Origin: a virus
DNA: 24,358 nt
Direction: 5' to 3' (one strand)
Virus record (IMG/VR): IMGVR_UViG_3300029263_000602
Span: 1 to 24,358 of that record
In this document: piece after piece, positions 2,537 through 23,414 of the stretch
How the letters are laid out: the number at the start of each line of letters is the position of its first letter
How positions within the stretch are numbered: the first letter of the stretch is position 1
The notes under the pieces: generated by a model
Database searches by the model: none
The model's input: only the letters and a program-made list of their open reading frames with translations
What the model was told of the DNA's origin: nothing
Position numbers and translations under genes: made by a program

Positions 2537-2776
2537 CTATGCTGCAGGTGCAGACTCACCTTCAGCCTGTGGTTGAGGATTCTTCTTAATAAAATCTTCT
2601 ACGATTGCATTAACTTTATCAAATACACCACCTACTGTAGACATATCGGCGGCTTTAAAAATACCAGCAGTAGTAGCAGTATCTAAAACAGCTCTCATAA
2701 CCATGAGGTCATTCATGCTAATTTGAATGCTTGGGCTGTCGTCTACTACTTCAGCATCTTGAATTTTGTCAGTCAT
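2537..2776 (-). CDS. Conserved small phage protein, unknown function
   Basis: A 79-residue acidic protein starting MTDKIQDAEVV. I chose this ATG rather than one 15 nt upstream because GGAG lies 9 nt before it, inside the longer version. A central part (MNDLMVMRAVLDTATTAG) appears helical; the tail is rich in Pro, Ala and Glu. No domain is recognised. Upstream are a strong sigma70 promoter and a late-type box, so it is probably expressed both early and late and in quantity. It is the first gene of the transcription unit running through the EF-hand protein towards the glycan genes. Confidence 0.7.
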   Translation of the reverse strand: MTDKIQDAEVVDDSPSIQISMNDLMVMRAVLDTATTAGIFKAADMSTVGGVFDKVNAIVEDFIKKNPQPQAEGESAPAA

Positions 2777-2798
2777 TATTAAAGTCTCCATTGATTTA

Positions 2799-2806
2799 AA
2801 TTTATA
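2799..2806 (-). promoter_or_regulatory. Late-promoter-like box (TATAAATT)
   Basis: On the minus strand this reads CTATAAATT, one base off the T4 late consensus TATAAATA. It ends 22 nt upstream of the chosen start of the gene at 2776, a distance like that of the clearer late boxes in this window. It lies just downstream of a sigma70 promoter, giving tandem early and late control. Confidence 0.45.
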
Positions 2807-2824
2807 GTATTATATATACTTTAT

Positions 2825-2853
2825 ATTATAACACATTTTTCAGCTATTGTAAA
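2825..2853 (-). promoter_or_regulatory. Sigma70 promoter
   Basis: Minus strand: -35 TTTACA (2853-2848), 17-nt spacer, -10 TATAAT (2830-2825). Eleven of twelve consensus bases with ideal spacing, in the gap after the fibre gene and upstream of the gene at 2776. Confidence 0.75.
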
Positions 2854-2858
2854 CTAGT

Positions 2859-4868
2859 TTAAGCAATCTTTGTAATAGTAATCTGGCCAACTTGCTTTTG
2901 TGCCGTCAAACCTGCAGTATTCACTTGGTTTCCAGATGATGCGTCAGCATTGTAACTACCGGCACCACCGCCAACATAAGGACTCCCAAGTCCTCCACCG
3001 CCACCGGAATATCCACCGCCACCACCGCCGTGTGTGTTACCATGCGCACCACCTCCACCAAAGCCGCCTGCATAATTAGCATCTTTGACGCCGCCAGCAC
3101 CACCATTTTTCCAAGATTTTGCTGTAGTTCCCATGGTGGTAAATGTACCACCATCAGTTAAGAATCCACCACCACCACCACCGCCGGATGCATTGTTGGC
3201 ACCACCAGAACCATTAGTACCACCGGCGCTGCCGCCGTTAGAACCCGCATTACCGTTAGCAGTAGCGTTAGCACTACTAATACTATTAGCAAGACCTGCT
3301 TGGTGTCCACTACCACCAGCACCAGCAATTACAAGAATATCACCGACTACAGAAGCGGCACCAGTTTCTTTAACAACAAATGATCCACCACTACCCGAAT
3401 GTTCAGCACCCACTGTCCCTTTAGGTCTTTGTCCTACTATCATGTAAAGGAATTCACCATTTGTAAGAGTAAAGTCACCACGTATTGACGCACCATAACC
3501 ACCTTGAGAGGAAACGTTTGCGGCGCCATCTGCTTGAATTCTATATGTACCGTCTGCTGGTACAGTCCATCGTTGTATACCATTCGTAACTTGGAAAAGG
3601 GCTGTATCGTTTTTCCATGCAGAGTAACCAGTAATTGTCAATGCCGCAATAGCTTGTGCTTGAGATGGACCAACATTTCCTCTTATTCCACCATCGTTAA
3701 ATACTGCCGAGCCAAACGTGTAAAGCTCACTAAGTTGATTTAATATTGTTATATTAAAAACCCTATTGACGAAGTTTCCTATCGGGTCACTTGCTTTAAC
3801 TGTTTTACTATAAACCGTACTGGATGATATTGACGCTGTGGTAACAGCACCAGTAATAGCACCAGCAGTGTTTATAGAAGTTCCTGGTGGTAAATCCCCA
3901 GAAATCCCAGCATATGTAACTGTTTGTCCAGCATCTACATCGGTTGCTACAACAGTAAGCGCAAGAGTTGCATCTTTGTTAAATGACCCTAACGACCCTG
4001 CCGCGGTAGTCCACACTGGACTAGCGCCTGTAGAAACAACCGCAGCCAAGTCTACCGTAACTGTACCAGATGTGTGTCGAATAGTTAGTGGTCCATTGGC
4101 AACAGTAAATGCTTGAGGTGTGACTGCTACGAGTTGTGTGGTGCTGGTGAAAGAAGTAGAACTTGCCCTGTGGACTGAAGAAGTATCTGCTGTAACGAAA
4201 TCAATAACATCACCAACAACAAAACCTGTTCCGTTTATCGTAATAGATTGTCCAGTGTTACCACTATAACTTGTCGGTGTGACTGATGATAAAGTTGCTG
4301 GAGTTTTTCCAGAAAACTTATCCCATTCAGTGCCATCCCAAATATAACCCATCTTTAATGCAATATCAAACGCCATGTCACCTACATCATTTCCGCTTGA
4401 GGGAAATGCCGCATAATTAGCGTATGTGGTGACTGACGCACCTCCACCAACTGGAACCCATGCGCTACCATAATAAACGTATAAAATGCTGGTGTCTACC
4501 GCATATCCTTGATCACCAGCAGTATTTCCAGAACTAGGAAATGCCGCAAGATTTGCATATGTTGTGGTAGACCCAGCAGCACCTGCAGCACCTGCATCAC
4601 CATCAGTCCCAGCAGTCCCAGCAGGACCAGATACACCAACCCATTGAGAAGATGTACCATCGTCATAATAAACAAACAATGCCCCAGTTAATGAATTATA
4701 CCATAATTGACCATCAACTGGGTTTGCTGGGGCGTTGTCAGAAGTACTTCCTATATTAGAAATCTGATCTTTCCAGATACCCTTACTAGAGTTGTAAACA
4801 TACGTAAGACCGCCAATAATGACAGTTTGATTATTAGTAGGACTTGCTGGAAAATTTGCTTTTGCCAT
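2859..4868 (-). CDS. Glycine-rich tail fibre / adhesin-like protein
   Basis: A 669-residue modular protein. In order: an N-terminal module ending in an IWKDQI element (1-40); an aromatic-rich module (about 48-80); a short collagen-like Gly-x-x run (81-99); two copies of a 40-45-residue module beginning TTYAN (about 102-141 and 147-186); an IPT/TIG-like Ig domain (about 190-275); a second Ig-like domain (about 284-375) containing SGDLPPGTSINTAGAITG; and a very glycine-rich C-terminal region (about 450-655) with polyglycine runs. This fits a phage surface fibre or adhesin; the C-terminal part recalls the polyglycine adhesin tips (gp38-like) of T-even-type phages. No signal peptide is seen. The Shine-Dalgarno is weak; a late box lies 122 nt upstream. 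Confidence 0.8.
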   Translation of the reverse strand: MAKANFPASPTNNQTVIIGGLTYVYNSSKGIWKDQISNIGSTSDNAPANPVDGQLWYNSLTGALFVYYDDGTSSQWVGVSGPAGTAGTDGDAGAAGAAGSTTTYANLAAFPSSGNTAGDQGYAVDTSILYVYYGSAWVPVGGGASVTTYANYAAFPSSGNDVGDMAFDIALKMGYIWDGTEWDKFSGKTPATLSSVTPTSYSGNTGQSITINGTGFVVGDVIDFVTADTSSVHRASSTSFTSTTQLVAVTPQAFTVANGPLTIRHTSGTVTVDLAAVVSTGASPVWTTAAGSLGSFNKDATLALTVVATDVDAGQTVTYAGISGDLPPGTSINTAGAITGAVTTASISSSTVYSKTVKASDPIGNFVNRVFNITILNQLSELYTFGSAVFNDGGIRGNVGPSQAQAIAALTITGYSAWKNDTALFQVTNGIQRWTVPADGTYRIQADGAANVSSQGGYGASIRGDFTLTNGEFLYMIVGQRPKGTVGAEHSGSGGSFVVKETGAASVVGDILVIAGAGGSGHQAGLANSISSANATANGNAGSNGGSAGGTNGSGGANNASGGGGGGGFLTDGGTFTTMGTTAKSWKNGGAGGVKDANYAGGFGGGGAHGNTHGGGGGGYSGGGGGLGSPYVGGGAGSYNADASSGNQVNTAGLTAQKQVGQITITKIA

Positions 4869-13697: not shown

Positions 13698-14099
13698 TTA
13701 TTGGGGAGTGGATATACCATCCATAGTATCATTTGCTTCGATGTAATATTTTTTATATGCACCAATGATAGAGTGCTGTTGTGAGATATACATCCTAATA
13801 TCAGAAAGATTTAAAGCAATGTTTTCATATCCTTCATCTGTTAAACCGAAGAAAACTAGAGGTCTGCCGCTATCTTTTATTTGTGAGAATGCTTCTTCAT
13901 GATTATCTGGAGTAATTAGAATCCATTCTACTTTTCTTTGAACTAATTCATCTGCTACAGGTAAAACTAACTTAGGTTTTTCTATAGGTTTAGTTGCTAT
14001 CTGTATTGGTTCTGGAATATCATTCAGACCTAGACAACCCCCCAGAAGTAATAAGATCGTCATAGACCCAAGGACATTCGCTATTGAACGCTTTGCCAT
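13698..14099 (-). CDS. Outer-membrane spanin-like lipoprotein (Rz1-type)
   Basis: A 133-residue protein with a lipoprotein signal: MAKRSIANVLGSMTILLLLGGC, positively charged start, hydrophobic core, and lipobox LLGGC with Cys22 as the lipidated residue. Then a proline-rich segment (IPEP to PKLVLP) and a ~90-residue soluble domain containing GLTDEGYENIALNLSDIR. ATG 14099 has AAGGA 9 nt upstream; a start at 14108 would have no spacing. Its start lies inside the preceding spanin gene in another frame (80-nt overlap), as in Rz/Rz1 pairs. It is longer than typical Rz1, but similar proteins are seen beside marine phage spanins as I recall. Confidence 0.75.
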   Translation of the reverse strand: MAKRSIANVLGSMTILLLLGGCLGLNDIPEPIQIATKPIEKPKLVLPVADELVQRKVEWILITPDNHEEAFSQIKDSGRPLVFFGLTDEGYENIALNLSDIRMYISQQHSIIGAYKKYYIEANDTMDGISTPQ

Positions 14100-14505
14100 T
14101 TTTTGCATTCCTTTCTTTCACTGTCAATTCGGCACCAGATTGAATTTCAAAACATCTGAGTGCTTTATCACTTGCATTATTTATTACACGTTCAACTAAT
14201 TCTGGTTTTGCTTCGCCTAGCATACCTATATCATGATTTTGAATCTTTTTCAATAAAACTTTGTTTCTAGTTCGTGTTCTTCTTAGTTCTCTATTAAGTT
14301 TATTTAGTTCTTCATTAACTTTTTTTATATTACTTTCCATACTAGAAATAGTCGCTATTTGTGTTTCAACAGCACCTTCTAATTTTGAATTATTGTCTTT
14401 GAGAATTTCTATTTTTGCTTGCATGTTATTCCATGTCTTATAACCAGCAAACCCAACTGAACTTATTAGTCCTATAACAAAAAGCATAATATAAATTTTG
14501 AGCAT
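14020..14505 (-). CDS. Inner-membrane spanin-like protein (Rz-type)
   Basis: A 161-residue protein with a single N-terminal membrane anchor (about residues 3-21), followed by a long coiled coil (about 27-90) rich in K/E/L/N heptads, then a C-terminal domain with two cysteines, including ELTVKERNAKNGKAFNSECP. This is the usual architecture of an i-spanin: anchored in the inner membrane and crossing the periplasm to meet the lipoprotein encoded in its overlapping 3' end. Together they would disrupt the outer membrane after endolysin action, pointing to a Gram-negative host. Its start overlaps the previous stop (TAATG). Confidence 0.78.
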   Translation of the reverse strand: MLKIYIMLFVIGLISSVGFAGYKTWNNMQAKIEILKDNNSKLEGAVETQIATISSMESNIKKVNEELNKLNRELRRTRTRNKVLLKKIQNHDIGMLGEAKPELVERVINNASDKALRCFEIQSGAELTVKERNAKNGKAFNSECPWVYDDLITSGGLSRSE

Positions 14506-15671: not shown

Positions 15672-17411
15672 TTATTTTTTATTCATGCTGTCTAGAATAT
15701 TTTTCATATTAGTAAATACGGATTCTTCAGACTTAACATCAACTTCAACAGATTCTCCCATTCTCTTACCTTGTGTGGCACTAGTATTAGTTGGAAACTT
15801 GTTCATGCTTTCAAGACCTTTAAGTACCTGCGCCATTGTATGAAATGGTCCATCAACAGAACCTTTGCCCTTTATATGAAAATACCCAGATTTATCTTTG
15901 ACAACCTTTGGTGCGTCCTTGCCCATTGAGTTTAATTTCTTTTGAACTTTAGCAAGTGTTCCTTGATCAACCTCAGTTTTATTACCCAAAGATTCTTTTT
16001 TTACGTCTTCTTTGTCCCAAGGTGCCTTTTTAAGTGATACTTTATCTTTAGGTTTTGCTTTTACTTTATCCAATGCTCTTTGCATTGGTGTTGCCTCATC
16101 AAGTTCAACAGACTCACCAATATTACTGTCACCATTTCTTTTTGGACCTGTTTTGACAGACGCTTTTATAGCATCCATAGTTTTATTGGCAACTTTTGGA
16201 CCATCAACAAATTCTGGAGTCTCTGACTTGTGCATAGCAATAAATTCTTGCTCAGTCATTTCGGTATCAAGAACATCATTTGCTCTGCGACCAGCAACTT
16301 GCTTATCCCAAGTATCAACATTCTGTGGAGCGTCACCTACTCTTTTTTCATCAAGTTCTTCGACAGATTCCATGAAGTCTTTAACTTTTTTACCTTTGAT
16401 AATAAGAGTCGTCATCGCGGAAGTTGAAATCCACTTAATGTTTGCATTTGCAAGTTGGATCAGTTCATCATCAGGAAGTTTCTTTATCATCTTAGACAAT
16501 TTTTGTCCAAGTTCCATGGAGATACGATCACCAGTAGTTGCATACGACTTTTTCATTGCTGCGATTTGACCCGGAGATAATGCTTCGTCAAGAATATCAA
16601 CTTTAGTATTAAGAATTTTTAAACCAATAGAACGTAAATCTTCTGCTTCGTCAAGTTCAACAGATTCCTTAACCAAACTAGTCATACTTGCTCCCATATC
16701 ACCCATCGCCATTGATACTTTCCCATTTCTATCGTATAGGTAATGCTTTACTTTTGCAGCACCTTCGCCTTGTTTAACCAAAGTAATTTTTCCAACTTTT
16801 GCTTTACCAACAATGGATTTAAATGTTACTTTAAATGTTCCCTCTTGCTGTTTCTTAATTGAAGAACCGTATTTGATTGTAACCATGTCGCCTTTTTTCA
16901 GACCATCGAATGTCGATTTAAAATCTGCGCCTTCATCAAGTTCAACAGATTCTTTTTGTGCTTCATTAGTTTTCTTTTTATCAGTGTCTTTTTTAAGGAC
17001 AGAACCCTTTTCGTCACGATCATCATCATCGTCTTTTTCTGGAGTGGCATCAGTTACTTTTGGTTTAGACTGATCTAACTCTTTTCCATCATCCTTGTCA
17101 ATTTCTTTACTGACAGTTTTACGGCGGTTGTCCAGATATTCGTCAGACTTATCAACATCGCCATCGTTATCAATATCTTTGTCTTTACGATCTTTAAATT
17201 TCTTTTTCAGTGCCTTTGGTTGAACTTTATCAAGTCCCTCACCATCATCAGATTTATTATTTGTATTATCCTCTGACATAGAAGGATCGTCATCTTTCAT
17301 CATAGACCCATCTGGCATCTTGTGCTTGCCATTTTTTTTCTTTTCTTCTAGTGCCAGCATCTGCGTGTATGCGTTGGCAATATTGGTGTTTACTTCATTA
17401 TTCGGGTCCAT
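15672..17411 (-). CDS. Multi-domain internal/virion protein with ESVELDE repeats
   Basis: A 579-residue, highly charged protein. Residues 1-150 are low complexity and acidic/basic, with one EF-hand-like loop (DIDNDGDVDKSD, 79-90). Then follow compact modules separated by the motif ESVELDE or variants at 154-160, 249-255, 348-355, 433-439 and 553-559. One module (about 165-245) looks beta-rich, with KKGDMVTIKYG and HYLYDRNGKVSMAMGDM. The motif plus Ala/Gly (LDE followed by A or G) fits the T4 prohead-protease rule (I/L)xE, so the protein may be cleaved during head maturation. AGGAG lies 8 nt before the ATG. No enzymatic domain is recognised; the internal-head role is inferred. Confidence 0.7.
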   Translation of the reverse strand: MDPNNEVNTNIANAYTQMLALEEKKKNGKHKMPDGSMMKDDDPSMSEDNTNNKSDDGEGLDKVQPKALKKKFKDRKDKDIDNDGDVDKSDEYLDNRRKTVSKEIDKDDGKELDQSKPKVTDATPEKDDDDDRDEKGSVLKKDTDKKKTNEAQKESVELDEGADFKSTFDGLKKGDMVTIKYGSSIKKQQEGTFKVTFKSIVGKAKVGKITLVKQGEGAAKVKHYLYDRNGKVSMAMGDMGASMTSLVKESVELDEAEDLRSIGLKILNTKVDILDEALSPGQIAAMKKSYATTGDRISMELGQKLSKMIKKLPDDELIQLANANIKWISTSAMTTLIIKGKKVKDFMESVEELDEKRVGDAPQNVDTWDKQVAGRRANDVLDTEMTEQEFIAMHKSETPEFVDGPKVANKTMDAIKASVKTGPKRNGDSNIGESVELDEATPMQRALDKVKAKPKDKVSLKKAPWDKEDVKKESLGNKTEVDQGTLAKVQKKLNSMGKDAPKVVKDKSGYFHIKGKGSVDGPFHTMAQVLKGLESMNKFPTNTSATQGKRMGESVEVDVKSEESVFTNMKNILDSMNKK

Positions 17412-17423
17412 TGGTGTTATCTC

Positions 17424-17702
17424 CTACATCCAAATTTGCGCTGCAATTGCACTTGCGGCGGCAACGATTGCCGCCCAAAATAGTTTGTTTATTACTTGTA
17501 CTGTGTGGGAATTTTCATCCACTTTTTTCTCTATAGCATCCAACTTATCTGAGAATTTATTCATTCTCTCCCAAGACTCTGTCCTATATTCGTTATAAGC
17601 ATCCATTTTTTCTTCAAACCGTGCTATGGTAACGAGTGCCTCTGACAAGGTATCAATCTTTAATTCTATACGATCTAGTCTCTTGTCAGTTGCTGTTGCC
17701 AT
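17424..17702 (-). CDS. Coiled-coil, tail-anchored membrane protein (XhlA-like)
   Basis: A 92-residue protein: a regular helix/coiled-coil of D/K/E/L heptads (about 5-68), then a C-terminal membrane segment (LFWAAIVAAASAIAAQIW). This layout resembles XhlA/hemolysin-like or spanin-associated phage proteins, but the match is to architecture only. ATG 17702 has AGGA 7 nt upstream, and an exact late box lies 25 nt further up, so it is a late gene. It may assist membrane disruption or virion-membrane contact; that is a guess. Confidence 0.65.
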   Translation of the reverse strand: MATATDKRLDRIELKIDTLSEALVTIARFEEKMDAYNEYRTESWERMNKFSDKLDAIEKKVDENSHTVQVINKLFWAAIVAAASAIAAQIWM

Positions 17703-17726
17703 AGTACATTCCTATTTGTTACGTTG

Positions 17727-17734
17727 TATTTATA
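17727..17734 (-). promoter_or_regulatory. Late promoter (TATAAATA)
   Basis: Exact T4-type late box on the minus strand, in a non-coding gap and 24 nt upstream of the start at 17702. It would drive the tail-anchored protein and the 579-residue repeat protein. Confidence 0.75.
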
Positions 17735-17739
17735 TAATT

Positions 17740-18030
17740 TTAATTATTAACTTTAGCACTTCCACGCCATTGATAGCAACTCCAATATTTCGCTTTCCAC
17801 TTGGGTCCAGCATCTTTATCGCATCCATGACGCGCCCTAAATGCTGCCCTTCTTTTTGGGTCATCTCTTTTTATTTCCATGTTCGGGTCGCCAAAAGTAA
17901 CTTTAACTATATTACCCTTATCATTTTTTACATACACGCCAAACTTTTTGTTGGAACCAGAAGGTAGACGAAATGGATCGTTTAGTTTCTTATTGCTATT
18001 ATCTTCGCAAAAATTACTAAAACTAATCAT
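17740..18030 (-). CDS. Small conserved phage/virus domain (DUF5872-like)
   Basis: A 96-residue protein. The conserved core runs from KFGVYVKNDKGNIVKVTFGD through NMEIKRDDPKRRAAFRARHGC to KWKAKYWSCYQW. This domain is common in large phages and resembles what I remember as DUF5872; two cysteines and one His may bind metal. ATG 18030 overlaps the previous stop by 8 nt with GGA upstream; the longer reading would need a TTG start. Because the gene ends the internal-protein operon, it is likely a virion or packaged protein. Function unknown. Confidence 0.75.
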   Translation of the reverse strand: MISFSNFCEDNSNKKLNDPFRLPSGSNKKFGVYVKNDKGNIVKVTFGDPNMEIKRDDPKRRAAFRARHGCDKDAGPKWKAKYWSCYQWRGSAKVNN

Positions 18031-19822
18031 TAGATTTTTCCATGTGCTGTTTTGCTCTTTGGATTGCCAATCGCGCACTTTCTCCAATACGATAGAATTT
18101 ACTCATAGCAGATTCATATGGACCAGTTTCCGCTGATCTGGAACTAAGTCTGGGTTTCCCCTTCTTGTTGCCAGCAGATTCCTGCACATCTTTAACAACC
18201 CAATGACTACCATTCAAGTCACTATTGTCGTTTGGACATTCACATCCCTCTTTTGCTTGATTTGGCGCACATCCACAATCTTCACAAACCATTTCTGGTT
18301 TATTAGCATATTCGCTAAGTTCATCTCCTAGTGGAGTTAGAACCTTTTCACGAAGTTTTACACCAAACATTTTCTCAACATTCTTTTTGCCCATGCTTTT
18401 TGCCATAGCGGTAATAACATATTCTCTAGGTTCAGTGTCCATATCATCTACGAATTTTTTCAATTTCATATCTAAACCTTTACGCAGCAATTTTGCTGCA
18501 ATCATGAAATCTTTTTCATCAATTCCACCATGCGATTTTGCATATTTTTCAATCGCTTTGGCAGCAGATTCCATACCAAGCGCACCCACAGTCTCATCAA
18601 TCTCAACAGATTCCTTCTTCATGGATTTCTGAAACGCTTTGTATTCCTTACGTCTTGCATCGTTATCTGCTTTTTCTTTGGGAGTCATTTGCGATACTGG
18701 TTTAGTTTTGCCTTCTTTAATGATGTCGCCTACTTTATGTTTTTTAAAATTCATACTGAAAGAGCCACCTTTATTACCATCTTTTGCTTGCTTGATATTC
18801 ATCTTACGCATAGCATCTTTACTGCCTACTGCTTGAACAACTCCTTTAGGGTCTTGATAATAGTATTGGTTAATACTATTTTTCATAGAGATTGCTTCTC
18901 CCATTTTATTTGATCTTTTTTGTACATCTTTAATGTAATCTTGTGTGGCAGATGTTTTTTTGACAACCTTCTTATTTCTATTCATATGCGCTGCATATTT
19001 GTCAGAATCAATTTTAGGTGCTTTTTCATCAAGAGATTCTTTATGCCAATTTTTACTAGGATTTTTTTCCGCGAACTTTTCCGCTGCGCTTAAATTATGA
19101 AACTTATTACTAGCATATCCAGACTTATCAGCAGTGTAATTGTACTCTCCACTTTTGGGGAGTGTTGATATTTTCCAACCATTGATAGTACGTTCATCAA
19201 GTTCAACAGATTCTTTGTACATGTTCAATTCATACTTATTGCCCATGTTATACACTTGTACTTGAACGCCCTTTTCTTTACCACTCTTATCGCTACCCAT
19301 TAAACGATATGAATTGGTTTTACCGTTTGCGGGTTTGCGTGGACCCATGCCTACTTGATCCATTCTTTCATCGTCTGTGATTTCTATACCATATTGCTTT
19401 TTTGCATGGGAAATGGCAGTATCAATCGCACTACCTAATGTTTTGTGGTGTAATTCATAACCCGTAGATGATTTTTCTTCTGAAAAAGATTCGTCAAAGT
19501 CGCCGTTGTCAGAATCTAGTTGTGCATTGTCCCAACCGTCAAACCAACTATCGCGTTCCTGACCTTTCTTTTTATTTGGATTCTTATTCCGTTTGATGTT
19601 AGACATCCAAGCATCATAACCACTTCTTTCTGCATCTTTCCATGATTTTTTTGCTTCTGATACGTCTTCTCGCTCATCTGCCAGAATGTTGAGTTCAACA
19701 TCTTCTTCTAGTTCATCGGCAACATTATCTAACTCAGCAAGTGCTTCGAGAAATTCTGTTTTGGTTACGTCATTTGCATGACTACCACTATGTTCTTTTA
19801 TGAATTGAGATATACTTTTCAT
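18023..19822 (-). CDS. Large modular internal-head-like protein with T4 CTS-like start
   Basis: A 599-residue protein. The N-terminus MKSISQFIKEH closely resembles the capsid-targeting sequence of T4 internal proteins (MKTYQEFIAEA). An acidic helical segment follows (30-60), then several small modules separated by ESVELDE (204-210), ESLDE (262-266) and ESVEIDE (404-410). A cysteine cluster (Cys513, 516, 518, 527, 529) may bind a metal ion. No enzyme motif is seen. Shine-Dalgarno AAGGG precedes the ATG. It lies in the late operon between the nucleotidyltransferase and the DUF5872-like gene. I infer that it is packed in the head and processed by the prohead protease. Confidence 0.7.
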   Translation of the reverse strand: MKSISQFIKEHSGSHANDVTKTEFLEALAELDNVADELEEDVELNILADEREDVSEAKKSWKDAERSGYDAWMSNIKRNKNPNKKKGQERDSWFDGWDNAQLDSDNGDFDESFSEEKSSTGYELHHKTLGSAIDTAISHAKKQYGIEITDDERMDQVGMGPRKPANGKTNSYRLMGSDKSGKEKGVQVQVYNMGNKYELNMYKESVELDERTINGWKISTLPKSGEYNYTADKSGYASNKFHNLSAAEKFAEKNPSKNWHKESLDEKAPKIDSDKYAAHMNRNKKVVKKTSATQDYIKDVQKRSNKMGEAISMKNSINQYYYQDPKGVVQAVGSKDAMRKMNIKQAKDGNKGGSFSMNFKKHKVGDIIKEGKTKPVSQMTPKEKADNDARRKEYKAFQKSMKKESVEIDETVGALGMESAAKAIEKYAKSHGGIDEKDFMIAAKLLRKGLDMKLKKFVDDMDTEPREYVITAMAKSMGKKNVEKMFGVKLREKVLTPLGDELSEYANKPEMVCEDCGCAPNQAKEGCECPNDNSDLNGSHWVVKDVQESAGNKKGKPRLSSRSAETGPYESAMSKFYRIGESARLAIQRAKQHMEKSND

Positions 19823-21277
19823 TTAATTTCCCTTTACTTTTGCTGCTAAGTCTGAGTCTGCTTTGCCCCAAGTACCACTGGACTTAGTTACAAATGAATT
19901 TACCCTTGCCATACCCCATTGTTGAGGTGTTGTTCCTGGTCTATGTCCAGTGCGCCATGCTGCTACACCTCTATCATAAACTTTCTTTAAGATGCCCAAG
20001 GGCATTCCTGTTTTTTCTGCTTTGTTTTTGAGACCTTCAGTGTTTTCATTAACATCTTCTGGTACACAATTGGGAACGCTTTTTCCCTTTTTGTTCTTCA
20101 TTCCAACTTGCTTGTAACCATCCCAACAATCTTCATCATACATCTTCTTGAAATTTTTTGTATGCTTAGAAGGTTTTGTTTCAGCGTCAGAATCTCCTGG
20201 TGCTGGTTTATATGCGCTATTGTCATCATCATTTTTTGCCGCGCCCGCTTTGAAATGTGAATCTCTTTTACTTTTTGTAGATTTAGACATATCACCAGCA
20301 TAATACTTTGCTGGTTGAGTGCCTTTTTTATCTTTAATATCTTGGTCTTGTACTACTTCTTTTACTTTTTTCTTTGAGGGAATATAACTTTTCTCTGCGT
20401 GTTTACGATAAGAATCTGTGCCAATTTCTTGCTCATTTATTGCCTCATCAATCGACTCTACAGAATCTAACCATTTGCGGATAGTAGTGCCATCTTCTTT
20501 TTCGAGAATTAAATAATTCGGACCCCGAACTTGAATAATTGCTTTTTCTTGAATATCGGTAATCATGACCATATCGCCAACATTAAAGATATTACCCTCA
20601 ACAAATTTTTCTCTGATATTAGATACAGTTTCAAGTTTTACATGGTTATGAAACTCATGTGCCTCTTTAAGTCCCATACCTTTTCTTACTGCATTAAACA
20701 GTTCTTTGGCGTCTTTATCTGACATAGTGGAAGGCAGTGCTTGAGAAAATAATATAAAATCATTATCTTGTGCTGCTTTGCGTTGTTTAGTCCCAGAAGC
20801 ACCGTTGACACCTTCGCCATCGGCATCACGTTGCCCAGCACTAATAACATTTAGAGTTTTAAAGTTATAAAACCCATGCTTACCCTTCACACCATTATAT
20901 TTTTTAAGGCGATTATCTAGTTCTTCTACTCTATCACTTCCAGTTACCATAACAGCATTTAGGTAACCATCGGAATACAATGCACTCGCGGCATTCATTA
21001 CATCCTTTACAGAAGTATTCATCATTACACTACGAGATTGTTTGGGAAACATCTTACGTACAAATTTTACTTTATCTACATAGGATAACGGATTCTTCTT
21101 TGAGTCATTGGATTGAGAAAGGTAAATTCTATATGGATTATTACCTGCTTTTTTACTGAGAACACTTAGTAGAAATCCATGACCTATAGTCGGAGGATTC
21201 ATTCTACCGAAAGTGAAATATACAGTTTTTTCTTCTTCTACCAAATACTGTTTGAATGATGTAAAACTAACGTCCAC
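19823..21277 (-). CDS. Nucleotidyltransferase with DUF5824-like C-terminus
   Basis: A 484-residue protein starting at a GTG codon (AGGA 10 nt upstream). After a CTS-like head (SFTSFKQYLVEE), residues 18 to about 180 form an adenylyl/cytidylyltransferase domain: FGRMNPPTIGH (23-33, the (H/T)xGH motif), MVTGSDRVEEL (110-120), and SGTKQRKAA near 165, equivalent to the ISSTxxR motif. A middle basic/acidic region includes the motif DSVESIDE (271-278). The C-terminal ~60 residues (GILKKVYDRGVAAWRTGHRP to KADSDLAAK) resemble DUF5824. It is probably an NMN- or sugar-phosphate-type transferase; the substrate is unknown. Packaging in the head is inferred from the N-terminus and neighbours. Confidence 0.8.
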   Translation of the reverse strand: MDVSFTSFKQYLVEEEKTVYFTFGRMNPPTIGHGFLLSVLSKKAGNNPYRIYLSQSNDSKKNPLSYVDKVKFVRKMFPKQSRSVMMNTSVKDVMNAASALYSDGYLNAVMVTGSDRVEELDNRLKKYNGVKGKHGFYNFKTLNVISAGQRDADGEGVNGASGTKQRKAAQDNDFILFSQALPSTMSDKDAKELFNAVRKGMGLKEAHEFHNHVKLETVSNIREKFVEGNIFNVGDMVMITDIQEKAIIQVRGPNYLILEKEDGTTIRKWLDSVESIDEAINEQEIGTDSYRKHAEKSYIPSKKKVKEVVQDQDIKDKKGTQPAKYYAGDMSKSTKSKRDSHFKAGAAKNDDDNSAYKPAPGDSDAETKPSKHTKNFKKMYDEDCWDGYKQVGMKNKKGKSVPNCVPEDVNENTEGLKNKAEKTGMPLGILKKVYDRGVAAWRTGHRPGTTPQQWGMARVNSFVTKSSGTWGKADSDLAAKVKGN

Positions 21278-21282
21278 GATTT

Positions 21283-22176
21283 TTATTTCCTAGCATCTGT
21301 AGAGGGTTTGTTGATTTTTCCAAATCTTTCTTTTTCTCTCTGTCTAACTACTGGCATCATTTTCTTAGCGATTGCTTTGATCTTACCTTGCATTTTAGAC
21401 AGTCTCTTTTCGATTTCAATTTTACGAGAAGTACTCTGGTCTTGTTTATCAGCACCTTTTGTAAACTTTTTAATCAGAACTTTTTTTGCTGCCTTCTCTG
21501 CCCTTTTTAAAAGGTCACCTTGAGTTGCCTTACGGCGTAGTTTTCTTTCTCTCTTGACAGCATTTCTCTTGGCATGTCTTTTAAACATTCTGCCCCGCGC
21601 AATACGTTGCTGCATGTTTAAGACTTCATCAAGACTCTCATCAACTTCAGCAGATTCTTTTGCTGCCATTACTGGTTTTTTGTTAAGTTTATACTTATCA
21701 TAACTTTTAGGCAGTCCATCAAATTTGTCTCTGGAAAATCTTAAATCTTTTCTCTTTGAATTCTTTACTTCATTACTGTGATCTTCATCACCCTTATCAG
21801 CACTCTGACCGAAGGCAGAATTTCTCATAGAATCTAAATCTTTTTGAAGTTGTTTCATCCTACGCAAAGTTTGCGGATTGACCATTTTAGAACCTGGTCT
21901 CATTTGAGACAGTTCAGAAATTTCTTCGCGGATTTTTTTGATTTCGTCTTTATGTCTAAGTCGCGCTTTACGCAAATCGGCAGTTCTATCTATCCTATCT
22001 TGTTTTCGATCAAGCGGAGATTCTTCATTTACATCAGGTTTATCATGGGTATAACCCAGTTTCTTCATCCGTAAATGATCTGCTGCTTTTTTTACTTTGT
22101 AACCCTTACCACTTTTGGGGTCATACATCATATGTGGTAATTCTGTCTTCTCTGTTAACTGTCTAAATGTTTTCAT
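21283..22176 (-). CDS. Highly basic, DNA-binding-like internal protein
   Basis: A 297-residue protein starting MKTFRQLTEKTEL, another sequence resembling the T4 capsid-targeting start. The middle has a coiled-coil-like K/E/R/L region (75-125). The motif ESAEVDESLDE lies at 174-184, and the rest (185-297) is extremely rich in Lys and Arg (MFKRHAKRNAVKRERKLRRK). Removal of the acidic front by cleavage at VDE or LDE would release a very basic fragment, as in T4 internal proteins that neutralise packaged DNA. The start shares one base with the stop of the ligase-like gene and has AGGA upstream. Virion location is an inference. Confidence 0.72.
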   Translation of the reverse strand: MKTFRQLTEKTELPHMMYDPKSGKGYKVKKAADHLRMKKLGYTHDKPDVNEESPLDRKQDRIDRTADLRKARLRHKDEIKKIREEISELSQMRPGSKMVNPQTLRRMKQLQKDLDSMRNSAFGQSADKGDEDHSNEVKNSKRKDLRFSRDKFDGLPKSYDKYKLNKKPVMAAKESAEVDESLDEVLNMQQRIARGRMFKRHAKRNAVKRERKLRRKATQGDLLKRAEKAAKKVLIKKFTKGADKQDQSTSRKIEIEKRLSKMQGKIKAIAKKMMPVVRQREKERFGKINKPSTDARK

Positions 22177-23414
22177 TAGTTCCTACCTGCTTTGTCCCAT
22201 CCTTTTAAAATATTGGGTGAAAAGTTGTTGTATGAAAATTCCATACGATCAACAATTTTCACTGCATCACCACCAAGTTTATCAATTACTACATAACCCT
22301 CTTCTCCAGTTACCTTAAAACCATCTTTGGTCTGGACAAAAGTATTTATAGTTTTCATTCTATCAAGTATATTTATAAGTTTTAGTTTTACAACTACGAT
22401 TAATTTTTGCAATTCAAACATTTTTTTAAGGTTGGATTTGTTCTCATCAGAGAAAAACTTCAATAGTTCATCTCTTTTTGTCTCTTGTGCAGTCTTTCCA
22501 CGTTGAGTTTTGCGCTTGTCGATCTCTTTCTGGAATTTCATCTTATGCCATTCAATGAGTTTATCAACATGCTTGCTTGTATCACCAATCAATTCGCCCT
22601 TGCGAACATAAGTGTTATTAAATGTTTCTATGGATTGAGCAAGACTCTTATTACCTTCCAGAGATTTAAGAGTAGTTGCTGTGATAGAATTAAATACTTT
22701 ACCTATATTAGATAAATTATTATTCACATCATCTGTATCTTTTTTAGTCATTGTAACATGACTCATATCTCGCAACATAGCATCTTGACTCCATACGTTC
22801 TTAGATGCTTTGAATTTACTTACATCAACGTCATAGACTGCCTTCATATTCTCAAATGTATTACCTACATATGATGTATGCCATACGATACCAATCTGAC
22901 TACTCATAACATCTTTTGCCGCCTGTGAATCAGCATCTATTGCATATAGTATGGTATTGGGGTGGAAGGTGAGATATTTTTTTCCACCAATGACTTTTGT
23001 TGACAAATCGTTTCGGGAATATAAGAAGTCTCCTTGGACCACACCTGTGATACCCAACTCTGGCAAGTACTTGAGTGCACTTTTAAGCAAAGCATTAAGA
23101 TCAGCAGAAGTATCAGAATCGATGTCATCTGAAGATTTATAGACTTTAGGGTTTTTGTTGAATATTCCTTTTTTGGCAACGAAAAAGCGGTTATCGCTCG
23201 GATCAATACCAGCAAATATAGCAGGAGAACCATCCCATTTAACACTTATATTACCACCCTTTTTACCACTTAACATACCCCTCATATTTCGTAAGGCAAC
23301 TATTGCTTCTCTTGTTCCAGAAACCCCACCATATAGTACTTTATCTTCGATATGCGTCATATGCATATTCTTCGTTTCAGTAACAAAAGCATTAGAGTCT
23401 TTCAGGGGGTTCAT
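22176..23414 (-). CDS. Ligase-like nucleotidyltransferase (KxDG superfamily)
   Basis: A 412-residue protein with elements of covalent nucleotidyltransferases: VKWDG with Lys59 as the putative AMP-accepting lysine (motif I), VQGDFLYS near 127-133 (motif III/IIIa-like), EEGYVV at 371-376 (motif IV) and AVKIV at 384-388 (motif V). The ~180 residues between motif III and IV are mostly helical and unusual for small ligases. It may join DNA or RNA ends or repair packaged genomes; I recall similar unassigned proteins in T4-like marine phages. Start ATG has AAGGA 6 nt upstream and a late promoter 28 nt away. Biochemical activity is unproven. Confidence 0.68.
   Translation of the reverse strand: MNPLKDSNAFVTETKNMHMTHIEDKVLYGGVSGTREAIVALRNMRGMLSGKKGGNISVKWDGSPAIFAGIDPSDNRFFVAKKGIFNKNPKVYKSSDDIDSDTSADLNALLKSALKYLPELGITGVVQGDFLYSRNDLSTKVIGGKKYLTFHPNTILYAIDADSQAAKDVMSSQIGIVWHTSYVGNTFENMKAVYDVDVSKFKASKNVWSQDAMLRDMSHVTMTKKDTDDVNNNLSNIGKVFNSITATTLKSLEGNKSLAQSIETFNNTYVRKGELIGDTSKHVDKLIEWHKMKFQKEIDKRKTQRGKTAQETKRDELLKFFSDENKSNLKKMFELQKLIVVVKLKLINILDRMKTINTFVQTKDGFKVTGEEGYVVIDKLGGDAVKIVDRMEFSYNNFSPNILKGWDKAGRN

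Follow-up and report, generated by a model that had tools for sequence, protein, structure and literature searches.

An ESVELDE-type peptide as a probable prohead protease cut site in packed, multi-module proteins of T4-like phages

The 24,358-nucleotide (nt) IMG/VR record IMGVR_UViG_3300029263_000602, a marine bacteriophage genome fragment analyzed here over its whole length (the window), carries a minus-strand block (15672-23414) that runs from the gene for a DUF6267 protein through open reading frames (ORFs) D, C, and B and two small genes to ORF A. ORFs A to D share a recurrent ESVELDE-type peptide, which we think probably marks the places where a prohead protease of the T4 gp21 type cuts shuffled, head-packed cargo proteins. 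The closest annotated relative of the DUF6267 protein is from phage C48C1 (62% identity), and others occur in Stenotrophomonas phage DLP_6, Methylophilales phage Melnitz, Pelagibacter phage HTVC008M, and cyanophages; wherever these relatives were inspected, they are T4-like by annotation. The module of the small gene at about 17740-18030 also sits within a long protein of phage Melnitz. No peptidase domain was detected by Pfam in ORFs A to D.

ORFs A to D hold 12 ESVELDE-type sites, all on the minus strand (Table 1), and the repeat is confirmed as a real feature of these four late proteins. An initial annotation of the window had counted ten copies in four neighboring proteins. The four proteins stand, the count depends on the variants included, and "neighboring" holds only loosely, since two small motif-free genes separate A from B. 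The residues that it reported behind the copies were read correctly (G, A, and A behind exact ELDE copies and A behind SIDE; R stands behind the fourth exact copy). T4 gp21 cleaves behind L/I-X-E (PMC9026906), and 10 of the 12 sites match this (L/I)xE rule. In 2,000 shuffles of the four proteins, VELDE is expected 0.003 times on average against 4 observed, and the wider motif pattern 0.0065 times (maximum, 1 per shuffle) against 11; the remaining minus-strand ORFs of the window hold no match to the wider pattern. Plain (L/I)xE[AGS] is mildly enriched (9 observed versus 2.8 expected, with a maximum of 10). The nonrandom element is the extended motif and not plain (L/I)xE[AGS]. Junctions homologous to site A3 in loci L033, L060, and L048 read IIE/N and IEE/S ahead of the same SPxQI module (here and below, a slash marks the junction), and site A6 is probably decayed or a mere linker.

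Table 1. Genes, motif sites, and N-terminal stretches of the block, with the loci of a P-loop protein from other contigs
Feature	Coordinates	Strand	Remarks
DUF6267 protein	22176-23414	-	Opens block; without internal motif
ORF D	21283-22176	-	297 amino acids (aa); basic module is its own gene in C48C1 and Melnitz
ORF C	19823-21277	-	Nicotinamide mononucleotide adenylyltransferase (NMNAT)-like nucleotidyltransferase (annotated cytidyltransferase), beta module, site, DUF5824
ORF B	18023-19822	-	599 aa, multi-module; three sites; N terminus MKSISQFIKE
Small block protein	about 17740-18030	-	MISFSNF capsid-targeting-like start from internal start codon
Small coiled-coil/membrane-type protein	17424-17702	-	Without motif; relative in C48C1
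ORF A	15672-17411	-	579 aa, multi-module; six sites
ORF D N terminus MKTFRQLTE	22150-22176	-	Targeting-like, LxE type; from sequence
ORF C stretch SFKQYLVE	21236-21259	-	Targeting-like; starts after a few residues
ORF B N terminus MKSISQFIKE	19793-19822	-	Targeting-like, IxE type; from sequence, residue roles compared with PMC9026906
Sites D1/D2, ESAEVDESLDE then V	21622-21657	-	ESAEVDE (21637-21657) overlaps ESLDE (21625-21639)
Site C1, SVESIDE then A	20444-20464	-	Small beta module ends and low-confidence stretch starts (predicted local distance difference test [pLDDT] < 50, residues 278-310)
Site B1, ESVELDE then R	19193-19213	-	Right border of widely shuffled module
Site B2, ESLDE then K	19025-19039	-	From sequence
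Site B3, ESVEIDE then T	18593-18613	-	From sequence
Site A1, ESVELDE then G	16932-16952	-	Fits (L/I)xE; folded module directly behind in predicted model
Site A2, ESVELDE then A	16647-16667	-	Fits (L/I)xE
Site A3, ILDE then A	16581-16595	-	Counterpart junctions exist in other loci
Site A4, ESVEELDE then K	16347-16370	-	Fits (L/I)xE; next residue less usual
Site A5, ESVELDE then A	16095-16115	-	Fits (L/I)xE
Site A6, ESVEVD then V-K	15738-15755	-	Outside (L/I)xE
P-loop protein in other loci	L046 1999-2727; G004 42334-43005; L034 1012-1725; L065 4560-7889		

The motif is widespread among viral sequences. A search of IMG/VR with a degenerate pattern retrieved KESVELDE from at least 119 stretches and the reversed peptide from none. 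Among the matches listed, the peptide lies in frame within an ORF of at least 50 aa at 117 of 119 loci, in 139 copies; the next residue is Ala in 52 of these, Gly in 19, Ser in 14, and Val in 13. The wider motif is confined to 1 to 4 ORFs in each of nine long genomes or contigs, compared with 0.0 to 0.15 expected after shuffling, and a chance or low-complexity linker is ruled out by the shuffles, the reversed-peptide null, and this confinement. C48C1, the nearest sequenced relative, lacks the exact motif under the first pattern, and the wider pattern retrieves a single NESVELEE. The cultured relative Melnitz (EXVC044M) carries the linkers EEIEIDE, EEVELDE, and EEFQLDE. The 84,980 bacterial and archaeal species genomes searched contain 30 motif stretches, of which 22 are in frame, mostly in unrelated proteins (several of them related recombinases) and once in a phage block; A, G, or S follows only 1 of 22 such chance copies. 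That block (L241; DGBH01000105.1), from a Bacteroidetes metagenome-assembled genome (MAG), combines the DUF6267/cytidyltransferase genes with the motif and represents phage sequence in the bin or cell.

Analysis of gene neighborhoods revealed two recurrent settings. Among the matches listed, 21 of 117 KESVELDE ORFs are at most two ORFs away from gp20 or gp21 and 54 lie no more than four ORFs from a DUF6267 protein, the basic protein, or the cytidylyltransferase, with 9 farther away or by other markers and 33 on loci that carry no marker. Where gp20 and gp21 are both present, the motif ORF lies between them at 13 of 14 loci; in the 14th (L074), an ORF at 2606-3820 that an overlap filter had removed also lies between them by coordinates. 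This interval is the location of genes 67 and 68 in T4, and one of the Melnitz motif ORFs is the scaffold protein gp22. Of the 15 motif ORFs on the nine long genomes and contigs, 12 lie no more than five ORFs from a marker, versus 10 to 20% of all ORFs. An acidic-hydrophobic peptide repeated in proteins that are probably injected could also be conceived as binding a host protein after ejection or as a degradation signal. Its presence in phages of different hosts (the Methylophilales variant, the Bacteroidetes MAG contig L241, and many metagenomes) and in a gene adjoining gp21, whose T4 counterparts serve assembly, makes such a role very improbable.

We searched 80 of about 115 distinct motif contigs with profiles for the gp21 protease of family S77 (PF03420), the major capsid protein gp23 (PF07068), and the HK97-type capsid protein (PF05065). 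The protease was detected in 20 contigs and gp23 in exactly the same 20. This search of related phages, which had been proposed in the initial annotation, thus shows the gp21-type protease accompanying the motif wherever gp23 is present. C48C1 and Melnitz encode both proteins, as do nine of the ten motif contigs of at least 74 kilobases (kb), and DUF6267 was found in 48 of the 80. On whether the motif is equally common in phages that lack a prohead protease, the evidence is partial: none of the 80 contigs encodes an HK97-type capsid protein, and the 60 without both gp21 and gp23 are mostly short and presumably fragments, so that the absence of the protease from them is uninformative. A 92-kb contig with neither gene (G006) was considered as a counterexample and rejected, being a T4-like fragment without portal or terminase; it encodes DNA polymerase, gp41, gp32, gp2, and gp4. 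Among 35 of 59 random control contigs (those of at least 10 kb), the S77 protease occurs in one, which at 221 kb is also the sole random contig above 74 kb, so that the control is not length matched for long contigs and the comparison there is weak. Below 74 kb, the protease is present in 11 of 70 motif contigs versus 0 of 34 random ones (Fisher P = 0.015).

The pattern of substitution within the motif is consistent with recognition by such a protease. In 85 nonredundant motif proteins, the single changes from ESVELDE at E, S, V, E, L, D, and E number 0, 9, 6, 12, 3, 10, and 1, respectively; Leu is replaced by F, V, or I only, and the last Glu is changed once, compared with ten changes of Asp. 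To judge from this variation, the positions P3 and P1 of a putative cut appear tight and P2 loose, as expected for (L/I)xE, and bar the first Glu they are the least variable. Ala, at 51 of 144 distinct copies, is found directly behind the motif 4.2 times as often as in the background, and Gly 2.0 times. The capsid protein of C48C1 retains FLTE at the position of the T4 gp23 cut (full chain, 521 residues; mature chain, 456 residues).

Modules located behind the motif are also found elsewhere opening separate genes. We masked the motif and aligned the modules, through their own similarity, with the starts of separate genes, counting nonredundant pairs. Glu lies opposite the last Glu of the motif in 23 of 77 pairs unfiltered (other columns, 13%), in 19 of 35 pairs at 40% identity or more (neighboring columns, 10.5% on average), and in 16 of 25 pairs at 50% or more. 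Excluding starts that themselves bear the motif leaves 20 of 73, 16 of 31, and 13 of 21 pairs, respectively. VELEE/GVNDPGIFKA (L065) corresponds to the separate-gene start MKSFKTFLDE/GVNDPAIFKA (L046), KESVELDE/ATRVSRKDFDKL (L111) to MKSFFTLRENTQVTE/AVRVSRKDFDKL (L087), KESVELDE/KAVSKSQQK (L010) to MIDFFQLRE/KAVSQAQQK (L024), and D2 of the window, SLDE/VLNMQQR, to the stand-alone C48C1 gene start MLSFKQFVSE/VLDATQR. The Glu coincidence is therefore real, yet it often involves a further Glu site downstream of the targeting peptide and not the targeting peptide itself.

A protein with a P-loop (GGPGSGKS) can be encoded by its own gene, with a targeting-like start, or form a module behind VELEE (Table 1), and this double occurrence suggests an injected, kinase-like enzyme. 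A small basic module (KKGLYANIHAKRKRGESPAKPG and variants) is found repeatedly downstream of (L/I)xE-type linkers, in isolates as well as contigs (L017, L026, L119, L235, and L236).

The same proteins and gene settings would also accommodate an uncut tag that serves docking to, or packaging with, the prohead core, contacting scaffold gp22 or the protease, with the tagged proteins remaining whole in the head. Targeting and processing are separable in T4 (PMC9026906), and both the invariant first Glu and the seven-residue length of the motif exceed the three-residue protease rule. A tag of this kind would account neither for P3 and P1 being tight while P2 is loose nor for the enrichment of Ala directly behind the motif or the frequency, above that in neighboring columns, with which its last Glu is aligned with Glu in the starts of separate genes, and it would have no need of copies where modules meet. 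We therefore consider it unlikely and favor a cut site.

The N termini of the block proteins may offer a route into the prohead. In the ten-residue targeting peptide of T4, positions 4 and 7 serve targeting and positions 8 and 10 serve processing (PMC9026906). Similar stretches open ORFs B and D and lie near the start of ORF C (Table 1), in whose family L12 and E14 are nearly invariant across 14 relatives. The DUF6267 protein and the gene at about 17740-18030 have a partial targeting-like start, and ORF A has none that is clear. Proteins of contig G003 start in the same style (MKSFKQYIDE and MKSYKQFINE). In G005 (MKRFSKFIQESIELEE) and G004 (MKSFKDIRLSESVDLDE), the motif stands directly behind such a stretch at the N terminus, and this adjacency suggests that the two are related.

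Published mass spectrometry places cyanophage relatives of ORF C in virions. The virion proteome of S-SM1 includes a putative cytidylyltransferase, T4-GC190 (PMC3037559), a cluster whose member in P-HM2 adjoins a DUF6267 relative and matches ORF C at 40%. Virions of S-CREM2 include ORF154 (3 peptides), ORF155, ORF156, and ORF160 (7 peptides) (PMC10665884, Table 3). ORF154 shares 33% identity with ORF C over 260 residues and has the targeting-like start MKNFSSFLTE/A, and ORF160 is a multi-module protein that matches ORF C over a short stretch (36% identity). The cytidylyltransferase reported from S-SZBM1 virions (PMC9146016) is 33% identical to ORF C and begins with the targeting-like MRFRQFIIE/A. 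The enzyme part of ORF C resembles nicotinic acid mononucleotide (NaMN)/NMN adenylyltransferases in Foldseek searches (best E value, 9.3e-5), and ORF C is a candidate packed protein with an NMNAT/NadD-like fold. A nicotinamide adenine dinucleotide (NAD)-related enzyme injected by a phage would be of interest with respect to NAD-depleting defenses. In the predicted model of ORF C (mean pLDDT, 70.6; 14 sequences), residues 1 to 14 and 278 to 310 are disordered, and this predicted disorder reaches the presumed N-terminal cut and begins at the presumed internal one. A modeled 207-residue piece of ORF A shows a predicted beta module between low-confidence stretches (1 to 11 and 101 to 129) that hold two ESVELDE copies, the low confidence outside the module perhaps partly reflecting missing alignment rows in a model built from nine sequences.

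Modules are shuffled, and their borders are enriched at the motif. Local similarity between motif proteins ends within five residues of a motif in 21% of cases with the motif masked, versus 8.6% for random placing (unmasked, 23% versus 8.4%), the similar pairs not being independent and masking itself being able to terminate an alignment. More than 20 proteins contain, at varied places, residues 113 to 202 of ORF B, a segment that stops just before a motif copy. DUF5824, at the end of ORF C, is also present in gp20-gp21 genes (L042, L100, L093, and L095), and C48C1 encodes it separately. In P-HM2, the enzyme part of ORF C terminates as a gene in its own right, and the next part opens another. 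At the DNA level, copies within one ORF share codons far beyond the expectation from the codon use of their locus (0.865 versus 0.476; 76 pairs in 27 ORFs from the IMG/VR loci and the window), and their flanks are unrelated (identities of 0.316 and 0.278): at the DNA level, the linker has been either retained or propagated. Between loci, codon identity is 0.587 with the peptide conserved. Motif copies also overuse serine TCC and leucine CTG.

On the basis of this codon sharing between unrelated flanks and the clustering of module borders at the motif, one could see in it mainly a recombination seam, that is, a near-identical DNA linker for module swaps that acts in the protein as a flexible acidic linker. 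Against this, the peptide is kept when codon identity falls between loci, variants retain L/I and E while altering D, and neither the alignment with stand-alone genes nor the location by gp21 finds an explanation. As the principal role, a seam therefore seems improbable; it is compatible with a cut site as a second role.

The reading that we favor, with fair confidence, is that the ESVELDE-type peptide is a gp21-type cut site placed between folded modules of prohead-packed, shuffled cargo proteins. Under this model, a capsid-targeting-like N terminus would take long precursors into the prohead core, where gp21 would cut them behind LDE or IDE during head maturation; each module would become a separate small virion protein, presumably to enter the host together with the ejected DNA. 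The genes would be cassettes whose modules are swapped between proteins and between phages, and a linker that is near identical at the DNA level may aid this shuffling. The proposal of the initial annotation, prohead-protease cuts in packed multi-module proteins, is thereby supported, not proven, through the protease that accompanies gp23, the position between gp20 and gp21, the constraint on P3 and P1, the Glu shared with stand-alone modules, and the block-protein relatives in purified virions; the targeting-like N termini, module shuffling, and DNA-level sameness of the copies go beyond it. Packaging is better supported than cutting.

Several observations weigh against this reading. No cleavage was observed, and no protease gene lies within the 24-kb window, which is a fragment. 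As the initial annotation had remarked of the VDE copies, ESVEVDV and ESAEVDE in the window fall outside (L/I)xE, and several other window copies are followed by K, R, or T. The invariant first Glu is not explained by the rule. Although A, G, or S stands behind 97 of 173 motif copies versus 194 of 428 (L/I)xE sites elsewhere in these proteins (P = 0.019), these residues are also common at the latter, so that the preference for a small residue is not motif specific. The stand-alone test is weaker when unfiltered, its identity filters were picked after the unfiltered list was known, and among starts of no more than 16 residues, the true range of targeting peptides, the Glu matches in 6 of 14; in the remaining starts, it is located farther in. 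Under a strict pattern, just 5 of 15 ORFs with internal motifs have a targeting-like start (other ORFs, 26 of 1,277), and the ORF C orthologs of P-HM2 and S-MbCM7 do not start in this way, though the gene cluster is represented in S-SM1 virions. Neither gene setting applies to the motif ORFs in G002 or G007 or to one of the two in G006. Finally, because the DNA sameness exceeds codon usage, part of it may reflect recombination and not protease choice.

A bolder form of the cut-site reading, to which we give somewhat less than even chances, is a plug-in cargo system of marine T4-like phages, in which host-takeover modules would be strung into polyproteins by a standard linker that would be at once gp21 cut site, derivative of the targeting peptide, and DNA recombination seam, so that any module between two linkers would be packed, released, and injected without a targeting peptide of its own. 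If cutting at the motif is true, it would account for a large group of multi-module proteins, as yet unnamed, that marine T4-like phages encode, predict the precise termini of dozens of packed peptides, and point to new injected effectors, including the NMNAT-like enzyme. It would also supply a natural linker with which several proteins could be loaded into T4-type heads and make what such phages inject besides DNA checkable from existing virion mass spectra.

Elsewhere in the window, two overlapping small genes (13698-14505) resemble a spanin pair by sequence, one with a lipobox-like LLLGGC start and the other with an N-terminal membrane helix and a coiled coil. A single ORF at 1349-2119 appears to combine a nucleotidyltransferase-like start (GGFDPLHSGH) with a cupin-like end.

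In searches of open-license PubMed Central papers (main texts), we found no report of such a motif, and processed, shuffled cargo polyproteins would constitute a new variant of T4 internal-protein packaging. In T4, IPI-III and Alt carry a capsid-targeting sequence and are cut by gp21 (PMC9026906). The present proteins resemble them in the short targeting-like N terminus with a final (L/I)xE seen in some of the block proteins, the same protease family in relatives, and, as far as can be predicted, packing in the head and ejection, the packed enzyme being Alt there and NMNAT-like here. They differ in having repeated internal sites between modules, compared with a single cut near the N terminus (in Alt, also near the C terminus). 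T4 gp22, gp67, and gp68 are split into several fragments by gp21 (PMC9026906), and the motif in relatives occupies the 67/68 gene position; however, those fragments are mostly cleared from the head (PMC9026906), whereas the pieces here are recognizable folded modules that recur elsewhere as separate genes and are thus more likely to be retained as cargo. The inner-head proteins of SPN3US and phiKZ, cut by gp245 and gp175, respectively, also combine one protease, many cuts after Glu, a three-residue rule, and large cargo (PMC10052503, PMC9026906); there, long N-terminal propeptides are removed, and the release of several kept modules is not described in the portions of these papers used here. 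In the polyvalent proteins of phages and plasmids, including DarA and DdrB of phage P1, shuffled domains are joined in one injected polypeptide that the authors compare with viral polyproteins (PMC5512222). Their release is attributed to embedded peptidase domains (PMC5512222), unlike ORFs A to D, which would be cut in trans by gp21.

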